Shown: positions 12,755 through 31,068 of the stretch, piece after piece
How the letters are laid out: each line of letters begins with the position of its first letter
Position numbering within the stretch: the stretch's first letter is position 1
Source of the DNA: a virus
IMG/VR virus record: IMGVR_UViG_3300049811_000825
Span: 1-31,068 of that record
DNA length: 31,068 nt
Reading direction: 5' to 3' (one strand)
Program-made: the position numbers and the translations under genes
The notes under the pieces: generated by a model
Told to the model about the DNA's origin: nothing
Seen by the model: the letters and a program-made list of their open reading frames with translations, nothing else
Database searches by the model: none

Positions 12755-14239
12755 CTACTTGGGCGGCGGCGCGTCCGGGCCGTCCGGGGCTTCCGGCGGA
12801 TCGACCGCCGGGACCGCCGTCCCCGCGCCGTCCGGCAGGTCCAGGCCGACGGCGCGCAGCGTCTTCAGGTCGGCGGCGAAGCGGTCCACCAGCTCCTCGA
12901 AGTCGAAGCCGCGCTCCGCCGCCAGGTCGCTGGGGGCGGCCAGCCGGTTGCGCAGCAGCGTCTCGGCCGTGCTGGCTTCCTCGCGCGGCGTGATCGACTG
13001 CCAGCCCCGCGCCCGCCACGCCGTCTGCTCGTAGCGCGGCAGCCAGTCGTCCCGCAGGGGTGCCAGCTCCCCCTTCGCCATCGCCGGGCCGAGCCAGGCG
13101 AGGAACACCCGCTCATGGAAGGCCGCGGCGAACCACGTGTGCAGCGCCCGCCATTCGTCGCGTTCCTCGGCCAGCCCCGCCCGCAGGCTGGCGAAGTTGG
13201 CGTCCGACAGGTCGCCGGTCAGGCCGGAGTAGCTCGAGTGCAGGCCGACCGCCGAAGCGCGCAGCATGTGCGCCAGGAAGGGCCCGACCTGCTCGTTGGG
13301 ATACGCCGGATCGAAGGGCGCGATGTCCCAGCCCGGCGGCAGCACGCCCGTCTCGCCCGCCTCCACTTCCTCGATAGGCGCATCGCCCTCGCCCTCTTTC
13401 GCCGGGGCTGGCCCGTCGTCGTCCGGGCGCTTGAAGAACACCATCTTGGCCGCGCCGTAGCGGGCGGCGGCCAGGGCGTAATCCTCGAACTGCCCGATCA
13501 TGTTCAGGCGGCGCAGCGCGGTGTGCAGCCACGGCCGCCCCACCGTCTGCAGCGGTTCCTCCGGCCGGAACAGGTGGATCACGTTCGCCGCCGGGATGCG
13601 CTCGCGCACCGGCCCGCGGGCGTGCGCCTCGGCCTCGCCGCGGGGAGCCGCGAACATGTGATAGGCCACCACGTCGTCGAACGGACCGCACTCGACGCCG
13701 TTGCGGATGTAGCCGCCGCCCGTCAGGTGCGCGACGTTGAGGTGCAGGTCCAGGTGATCGACGCTCAGCACCTGCAGGCGGAACCCGAACGGCCCGGCCT
13801 CCCGGCCGCGCACGATGCGGAACAGCGCGTTGCCCTCGCACGCCACCGCGCGGATCGCCACGCGCTGGACGTCCAGCCACGACAGGCGGCGACAGGCCGT
13901 CGGCGAGCCCCACTTGCCCCAGCGCGCCCACGCGCCTTCGATCACCCGGCGCGCCAGCGGATCGGCGGCGCCCCCCGGAAAGGCGGCCTGCGACTGCAGC
14001 TCGATGCCGCGCGGGCCGACCACCTGCCGCGCCACAAGGCCCAGATACCCGCGCACGTAATCGTTGTTGCGCGCGGCGTCGCGCGCATGGGCGATCAGGC
14101 CGGGCAGGTCGCGCGCCAGCACCGTGGCGGGCGCGATGTCGCCCATCAGGAACGGGGCCAGCCGGTCGGGTCGGGCCGCCTTGTAGCTGCGCGCGCCGGT
14201 CCGGCCGCGCGGGATCGTGGCCGGATCGGCTGCGCTCAT
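12755..14239 (-). CDS. Portal protein, lambda gpB family
   Basis: 494 residues, ATG overlapping the gpW-like stop as ATGA. Family blocks visible in order: A-R-D-A-A-R-N-N-D-Y-V-R-G-Y near residue 50, V-V-G-P-R-G-I-E-L-Q-S-Q, Y-H-M-F (about 190), H-L-F-R-P-E-E-P-L-Q-T-V-G-R-P-W-L (about 220), the long helix G-Q-F-E-D-Y-A-L-A-A-A-R, and S-S-Y-S-G-L-T-G-D-L-S-D-A-N-F-A-S-L-R near 340. These are typical of phage_portal_2. It forms the dodecameric vertex ring through which DNA is packaged. The end is Pro-rich (PDGPDAPPPK). Size is slightly below lambda gpB (533). Confidence 0.94.
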   Translation of the reverse strand: MSAADPATIPRGRTGARSYKAARPDRLAPFLMGDIAPATVLARDLPGLIAHARDAARNNDYVRGYLGLVARQVVGPRGIELQSQAAFPGGAADPLARRVIEGAWARWGKWGSPTACRRLSWLDVQRVAIRAVACEGNALFRIVRGREAGPFGFRLQVLSVDHLDLHLNVAHLTGGGYIRNGVECGPFDDVVAYHMFAAPRGEAEAHARGPVRERIPAANVIHLFRPEEPLQTVGRPWLHTALRRLNMIGQFEDYALAAARYGAAKMVFFKRPDDDGPAPAKEGEGDAPIEEVEAGETGVLPPGWDIAPFDPAYPNEQVGPFLAHMLRASAVGLHSSYSGLTGDLSDANFASLRAGLAEERDEWRALHTWFAAAFHERVFLAWLGPAMAKGELAPLRDDWLPRYEQTAWRARGWQSITPREEASTAETLLRNRLAAPSDLAAERGFDFEELVDRFAADLKTLRAVGLDLPDGAGTAVPAVDPPEAPDGPDAPPPK

Positions 14240-30288: not shown

Positions 30289-30618
30289 ATGCGCAACTTC
30301 ATCACGCTGGCGGCGGCGGCGCTGCTGCTGGCGTCCGCGGCGGCGGCGGCCGAGCCGAACGGCTTCGGCGGCCGGTTCGGGGCGAAGGCCCTCGCCGCGG
30401 GCGGCTTCGCCTCGGCGGGCCAGGCGGGCGAGTGGTCCGTGGGGACCATGACCGACAGCTACGGCGGCGCGGCCGTCGGCGCGCGCGACGGCGGTTTCTC
30501 GGCCGACGTGAAGGGCGGTCAGAAGTCCGAAGGCTTCGGCTCGAACTTCCGCGGCGTCGCGGCCTCCGGCGGCTTCGGCAAGGGCTTCGCCCGCGGCGGT
30601 TTCGGGGGGCGGTTCTGA
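30289..30618 (+). CDS. Secreted Gly/Phe-rich protein
   Basis: 109 residues. MRNFITLAAAALLLASAAAAAEP is a typical signal peptide with a likely cleavage after Ala-Ala-Ala (before Ala-Glu-Pro, near residue 20-21). The mature part is a low-complexity repeat of Gly-Phe pairs: G-F-G-G-R-F-G, A-G-G-F-A-S-A, F-S-A-D-V-K-G-G, E-G-F-G-S-N-F-R-G-V, G-G-F-G-K-G-F-A-R-G-G-F-G-G-R-F. Aromatic Gly-Phe repeats can form adhesive or phase-separating layers. It may be a moron that alters the host surface or periplasm. No family is named. Confidence 0.8.
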   Translation: MRNFITLAAAALLLASAAAAAEPNGFGGRFGAKALAAGGFASAGQAGEWSVGTMTDSYGGAAVGARDGGFSADVKGGQKSEGFGSNFRGVAASGGFGKGFARGGFGGRF

Positions 30619-30929
30619 TGGCGCCCGATCTCGACATGACCGGCCGCAAGGTCATCGTCCGCACGTCGGACGCGGGGGTCCACTTCGGCACGCTGGCGTC
30701 GCGGACCGGCGGCGAGGCCGTCCTGACCGACAGCCGCCGCCTCTGGTACTGGCGCACGGCCGACAAGGGCATCAGCCTGTCCGACGTCGCCGTCGGCGGC
30801 ATCGACCCCAAGGGGTCGAAGATCTGCGCGACGCTGCCGCAGCACCTGCTGATCGGCGTCATCGAAGTGATCCCCGCCACGTCCGCCGCCGCCGCCAGCA
30901 TCGAGACGGCCGATGTCTACCGCGCCTGA
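30618..30929 (+). CDS. DUF6948-like protein
   Basis: 103 residues. ATG overlaps the stop before as TGATG. It matches the DUF6948 pattern in my memory: K-V-I-V-R-T-S-D-A-G-V-H-F-G-T-L, L-T-D-S-R-R-L-W-Y-W, I-S-L-S-D-V-A-V-G-G-I-D-P-K-G-S-K-I, L-L-I-G-V-I-E-V-I-P-A-T and A-A-A-S-I-E. This small beta protein family is found in phages and of unknown role. It sits between a Gly/Phe secreted protein and a Gly/Tyr-rich open frame, which may be linked to it. Confidence 0.82.
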   Translation: MAPDLDMTGRKVIVRTSDAGVHFGTLASRTGGEAVLTDSRRLWYWRTADKGISLSDVAVGGIDPKGSKICATLPQHLLIGVIEVIPATSAAAASIETADVYRA

Positions 30930-31068
30930 CGGCCACGCTGAAGGCTCCGGCTACGGCTACGGCTACGGCGACGGCTCCGGCTACGGCTACGGCTACGGCT
31001 CCGGCTCCGGCGACGGCGACGGCTCCGGCGACGGCGACGGCTACGGCTACGGCTACGGCTACGGCTAC
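30913..31068 (+). CDS. Partial gene encoding Gly-Tyr/Ser/Asp dipeptide repeats
   Basis: 52 codons are seen and no stop is reached: the gene runs off the window. ATG 30913 overlaps the DUF6948 gene by 17 bases. After MSTAPDGHAE, 21 consecutive dipeptides follow, each Gly plus Tyr (11), Ser (5) or Asp (5). Gly is always GGC, Tyr TAC, Ser TCC and Asp GAC, so each differs by one or two bases. The regular alternation and exact in-frame placement show selection on protein sequence or recent expansion by slippage. Such proteins could be flexible, aromatic and acidic. Function unknown; expression depends on an unproven start. Confidence 0.62.
   Translation, partial: MSTAPDGHAEGSGYGYGYGDGSGYGYGYGSGSGDGDGSGDGDGYGYGYGYGY
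30943..31068 (+). repeat. Hexanucleotide tandem repeat GGC-TAC/TCC/GAC
   Basis: 21 consecutive 6-base units, GGCTAC, GGCTCC or GGCGAC, reach the window end. The period of 6 keeps reading frame and changes only codon positions 1 and 2 of the second codon, the hallmark of a coding microsatellite. It is prone to copy-number change in multiples of two residues. Confidence 0.9.

Follow-up and report, generated by a model that had tools for sequence, protein, structure and literature searches.

The nearest described principle to the locus reported here is that of the Borg aaTR proteins, which carry fast-evolving in-frame tandem repeats and are mostly disordered (PMC9879509). Such repeats are also present in 5 of 19 Borg Sm proteins (PMC9879509). 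In Iodobacter phage phiPLPE, a repeat was listed as (KMGCCG)35 and proposed to be a novel attachment site, and a 15-base repeat of Vibriophage CP-T1 (12969-13158) is listed beside it (PMC3391216, Table 3). For the domain family DUF6948 (PF22253), the Pfam model covers the first gene of the cassette described below and not the repeat gene; a literature search found no paper naming DUF6948 in the library searched, and a search on DUF7666 found nothing there.

In this study, a Gly-X dipeptide repeat gene (GX), located at the end of a virus contig, was analysed together with its relatives. The window, meaning the whole stretch of DNA that was analysed, is a complete virus record of 31,068 bases. 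Our main result is a two-gene DUF6948-GX cassette with its evolutionary signature; the biochemical function discussed below is one that we infer.

Results

The GX array in the window

The original prediction described 21 uninterrupted Gly-Tyr, Gly-Ser or Gly-Asp units in a frame starting inside the DUF6948 gene, differing only at the first two bases of the second codon. Both statements were confirmed (Table 1), as every unit is GGC-TAC (11 units), GGC-TCC (5) or GGC-GAC (5), giving a period of 6 with a score of 182. Elsewhere in the window the longest alternating Gly-X run was 5 units, and the maximum in 60 first-order Markov simulations of the window was 7 units; the array is therefore not due to chance. 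The GX frame is open up to base 31,068 and, as the window is the whole record, the contig end truncates the array. Structural genes and a primase lie on the strand opposite to the array.

The stop of the ORF upstream of the DUF6948 gene overlaps the DUF6948 start (ATGA). This ORF had no relative among the DUF6948/GX loci examined, and it is therefore treated as context outside the conserved cassette.

Table 1. Positions of the array, the GX gene and the neighbouring genes in the window
Feature	Position	Strand	Description
Upstream ORF	30289..30618	+	109 aa; signal-peptide-like N-terminus, then Gly/Phe-rich
DUF6948 gene	30618..30929	+	103 aa; first gene of the cassette; PF22253; predicted Sm-like five-stranded barrel
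GX gene	30913..31068	+	ATG at 30913, no stop; 52 codons present, incomplete at contig end
Overlap of DUF6948 end and GX start	30913..30929	+	17 bases
GX leader	30913..30942	+	MSTAPDGHAE
GX array	30943..31068	+	21 units GGC-[TAC/TCC/GAC], (Gly-[Tyr/Ser/Asp])21

Linkage of DUF6948 and GX across phages

The search with the DUF6948 protein of the window returned distant relatives only. In two of these (L005 and L006), a Gly-X array followed in a different frame. Linkage was then counted from both sides. A pattern scan of viral contigs gave at least 120 stretches, and two further patterns likewise gave at least 120 each; among the matches listed there were 258 distinct GX ORFs, 209 of them with enough upstream DNA, and DUF6948 was directly upstream on the same strand in 161/209. 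In the reverse direction, 95 DUF6948 loci were reached by protein alone, and an array lay downstream in 91 of the 94 with enough downstream DNA, a count in which not all loci are independent, as L495-L502 share one DUF6948 sequence and seem to represent a single phage population. In the GenBank phage records with DUF6948 the array was adjacent in 16/16, with one array degenerate and one upstream of DUF6948.

Of 153 linked loci, 133 had a GX start that overlapped the DUF6948 stop or lay within 10 nt of it; the median overlap was 13 nt. The overlap in the window fits this arrangement, in which GX starts inside or just after DUF6948 in another frame. As judged from gene anatomy and linkage, it is almost certain that DUF6948 and GX form a two-gene cassette with overlapping frames that is widespread in phages. 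Arrays of this type were found in more than 200 phage contigs, and the carriers are many unrelated bacterial viruses. The original prediction had regarded the gene as not the usual phage content, which does not hold, since GX recurs beside DUF6948 in hundreds of phage contigs. Two Neisseria gonorrhoeae records, NZ_CP119142 and NZ_CP119140 (L473, L482-L488), contain three DUF6948-GX copies per genome; both are 2.17 Mb and chromosome-sized, although they are filed in a plasmid collection.

DUF6948 and its predicted fold

The first cassette gene of the window is a clear member of DUF6948 by profile comparison (PF22253; E 7.1e-27, 93.8 bits against a cut-off of 27, profile positions 2-85 of 85). 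Its AlphaFold2 model (pLDDT 95.4) has five strands forming a small barrel. When this model was compared with the PDB by Foldseek, the best 50 matches listed were all from Sm/Lsm proteins or complexes built on them, with a best E-value of 2.2e-3, which misses 0.001, and a TM of about 0.5. Small barrels resemble one another. The Sm1 and Sm2 motifs were not seen in the DUF6948 alignment A1, which was read by eye; the Sm-type N-terminal helix is absent from the model, in which the first element is a strand at residue 11; and hhalign, run against two Sm-family sequences, returned a probability of 3.3. Because the motifs and the N-terminal helix are absent and the profile comparison was negative, the model weakly indicates a resemblance to Sm/Lsm proteins rather than membership of that family.

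Forms of the GX protein

In many complete GX copies a short leader is followed by the array, after which the frame stops, often as GGC TAA. In the relatives, the leader has a median of 10 aa (3-37 aa, 5th-95th percentile) and the array a median of 30 units, with a maximum of 74. Other copies carry additional domains: a domain of about 150 residues after the array (domain B, 25 loci), one of about 110 residues, also after the array (domain C, 13 loci), and a short domain N-terminal to the array (domain D, 6 loci). The original prediction expected a C-terminal domain, and this is correct for a minority of copies; in many complete ones little or nothing follows the array.

Domains B and C had no convincing match in Pfam, PHROGs, NCBIfam, PADLOC or PDB sequences. 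The model of domain B (pLDDT 95) resembles no solved structure. Invariant residues, including a W-H...LTGSC..GR stretch, were seen in domain B (L008, L037, L062, L067, L073, L124 and others), and a motif LHAT..P.KW.G..WW.VAL in domain C (L022, L065, L069, L088, L098, L108, L109, L123, L126). The GX protein itself had no PHROGs or NCBIfam family and no above-cut-off Pfam match; the nearest candidate, TrAA12, scored 24.4 bits against a cut-off of 30.9 and was rejected as a match due to composition. Arg (AGA) or His units occur in the arrays of L097, L016 and L233, where several tandem GX genes were also seen.

Codon uniformity and composition

Within an array, the third base of the Gly codon was uniform in 97.7% of units and that of the X codon in 98.0% (222 phage arrays), and the first two bases of X were TA (36%), TC (30%), GA (27%) or AA (4%). 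Because uniform arrays are more likely to be caught by a pattern scan, a fair comparison uses the 73 arrays reached via DUF6948 alone, in which the diversity at Gly3/X1/X2/X3 was 0.048/0.394/0.434/0.033. Gly-X arrays of host genomes had the reverse pattern, 0.36/0.06/0.07/0.28. Long Gly-Asp or Gly-Ser arrays with free synonymous variation were observed in genome_contigs loci such as L356, L417 and L435, and several long arrays of this host type are in Polyangia or unclassified MAGs.

Between phages, all four Gly codons and both C and T third bases occur, giving synonymous frames such as GGC-C, GGC-T, GGT-C, GGG-C and others, and the frames of DUF6948 proteins that are 70-90% identical agreed no more often than by chance. 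The amino-acid classes within one array shared a common Gly third base in 217/225 and a common X third base in 222/225. Serine is encoded by TCC or TCT in most phages and by AGC in the gonococcal copies, whose arrays have more synonymous variation than the others.

The Gly-[Tyr/Ser/Asp] composition is kept from 25 to 74% GC and hardly tracks genome GC, with Asp at 0.27 and Ser at 0.32-0.36 both below 0.42 and above 0.60 GC. In the set of 73, no array (0/73) consisted of one residue at 85% or more, and the order of units was free except for a slight deficit of identical neighbours (z -2.8). At the level of coding sequence, these comparisons show GX to be a protein-level feature of strict Gly-X alternation, with X taken from Tyr, Ser and Asp, and sometimes Asn.

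Turnover of the arrays and an evolutionary model

The Pectobacterium phages Ymer and Amona differ at 1 position in 470 nt upstream and at none in 900 nt downstream of the array, but the arrays themselves are unlike (29 and 26 units), and the exact unit order in the Ymer group needs care because these genomes are short-read assemblies (PMC11445585). Other pairs differ by one 27-unit block (L049 and L081), two GAC-to-TCC unit swaps (L531 and L533) and a single TAC-to-TCC change (L061 and L094). By position, the differences between related arrays fell at X1 (45), X2 (44), X3 (6) and Gly3 (3). Comparison of relatives therefore bears out the predicted length variability, and it shows that unit order and number turn over fast while the Tyr/Ser/Asp composition is held.

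Koroua and Ymer have no differences over 1 kb on one side of the array, whereas on the other side there are 23 differences and a gap beside the array, followed by no differences for 6.5 kb. This suggests recombination endpoints in or beside the Pectobacterium phage arrays. In the Pectobacterium phage genomes L477-L481, the array borders swapped tracts between otherwise identical phages.

Fast array turnover was simulated. Turnover without selection for a residue mixture was rejected, as X, and every base, became uniform. Mixture selection with breakpoints only at unit borders was also rejected, as the Gly3 diversity of 0.35-0.37 was too high. With breakpoints anywhere and mixture selection, diversity was 0.029 at Gly3, 0.43-0.45 at X1, 0.41 at X2 and 0.05-0.065 at X3, where one simple selection rule was used and the match to the data was judged by eye, not fitted. 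Breakpoints anywhere in the unit allowed the frames to switch in concert. Arrays thus probably evolve through tandem duplications and deletions whose breakpoints can fall at any point of the 6-base unit, together with ordinary mutation and selection on residues, which would retain Gly at each odd position plus the Tyr/Ser/Asp mixture. In these simulations a targeted mutator is not needed, since shuffling with mixture selection reproduces the pattern.

Genes around the cassette

Where neighbours of the cassette are annotated, Koroua has Erf, SSB and exonuclease VIII, phiPLPE has RecE and Bet, and MW202478 has erf and an exonuclease; a Monoglobus plasmid record has SSB and RusA. When 120 flanking proteins were scanned against PHROGs, the matches were scattered, and each family occurred in 4/120 at most; among them were the Erf, replication initiation and NinB families.

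Discussion

The best overall explanation of these observations, which we favour tentatively, is that GX is a shuffled, composition-selected protein working with the Sm-like DUF6948 protein. The biochemical role that we propose for the pair is put forward with slightly more reserve. GX could be a disordered multivalent polymer in which Tyr would act as a sticker, Gly and Ser as spacers and Asp as the charge; the flexible protein of the original prediction is, on this evidence, a probable one. DUF6948, as a predicted Sm-like small barrel, would be the partner of GX and might assemble into rings or bind nucleic acid. Early in infection, the pair could structure assemblies of nucleic acid or protein in the vicinity of the recombination/replication module. 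The more specific proposal of a two-part phage condensate system, in which the Sm-like protein and the Gly-X polymer form a nucleic-acid-rich compartment around recombination or replication and selection acts on Gly-X composition and not on order, is speculative, and as a joint claim we consider it rather unlikely.

Silk fibroin has strict Gly-X alternation, and GX could likewise be a structural protein whose beta strands present Gly on one side and Tyr/Ser/Asp on the opposite side, so that it would form a fibre or gel instead of a disordered chain. In GX, strict alternation extends over a median of 30 units and a maximum of 74. However, X is not Ala-rich, the order of units is free apart from the slight deficit of identical neighbours, and 6-base tandem turnover would also leave strict alternation, which makes a silk-like protein an unlikely explanation. 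Equally unlikely is a hypervariable decoy, a role also named in the original prediction, or an anti-defence protein, whose changing array would keep the phage hidden from a host sensor or titrate a factor of the host. Phages with near-identical flanks do have wholly different arrays, but composition is held and not diversified, simulated free shuffling yields variation without selection for novelty, and DUF6948 and the fused domains had no convincing PADLOC match.

The array could also act as a DNA element, for example as an attachment site or a hotspot of recombination, with the GX frame open by coincidence. Its position at the edge of the tracts swapped between Koroua and Ymer, and the proposal of the phiPLPE copy as an attachment site (PMC3391216), are consistent with this. 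However, the hexamer DNA is not conserved between phages while Gly-[Tyr/Ser/Asp] is, the composition is held across very different base compositions, and the array stays beside DUF6948 with the overlap conserved. We therefore find a DNA element improbable. The same applies to a virion surface, coat or decoration protein, as the original prediction had proposed. Flexible display would suit repetitive Gly-rich chains, but GX overlaps DUF6948, its leader is short, usually about 10 residues, and the neighbours, where annotated, are mostly recombination and replication genes (Erf, SSB, RecE, Bet, RusA).

Targeted mutagenesis, similar to a diversity-generating retroelement rewriting X1 and X2, could account for the concentration of differences at these two positions and their rarity at X3 and Gly3. 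It is nevertheless very improbable, as adenines are not specifically affected and some units are exchanged from GAC to TCC, the annotation of the complete Koroua genome lists no reverse transcriptase, and ordinary mutation with selection reproduces the pattern in simulation. A short-read assembly artefact, which might be suspected from the short-read origin of the Ymer-group genomes and from contigs ending inside the array in 12/95 DUF6948 loci (in L498 after 14 of 37 units), is barely credible, because the 37-unit array is identical in seven other contigs of the same phage, so that the arrays are real, and because several unrelated phages with complete genomes have arrays, as do two gonococcal genomes.

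A shuffled, composition-selected GX acting with DUF6948 would be of interest for several reasons. An unexplained domain family now has a partner gene, itself undescribed, that is present in hundreds of phage contigs. The arrays can be regarded as a natural experiment, in which the synonymous bases log tandem turnover and the residue mixture logs selection on composition alone, making the requirements of a disordered chain directly testable. There is also a practical warning that short-read phage contigs break at GX arrays.

The phiPLPE repeat (KMGCCG)35 is the GX array read on the other strand, and we found it downstream of DUF6948. The published description is of a DNA repeat that might serve as an attachment site (PMC3391216), whereas here it is read as a gene, which offers an alternative reading of the published array.

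FUS-like low-complexity domains are of the Gly/Ser-Tyr type. GX shares Gly-X alternation with silk fibroin (Gly-X)n, and it is Gly/Ser/Tyr-rich, as are FUS-like domains. Unlike both, its X is Tyr/Ser/Asp and it is phage-borne and hypervariable, and no common descent is suggested.

The Borg aaTR and aaTR-Sm proteins and GX are all proteins of mobile elements with rapidly turning-over in-frame tandem repeats. The repeats of the Borg Sm proteins have perfect units of 4-17 residues and are fused at the N-terminus of the Sm protein (PMC9879509). In contrast, GX has a two-residue unit in which one position varies in nearly every array, and in most cases the array forms a gene of its own, overlapping DUF6948.
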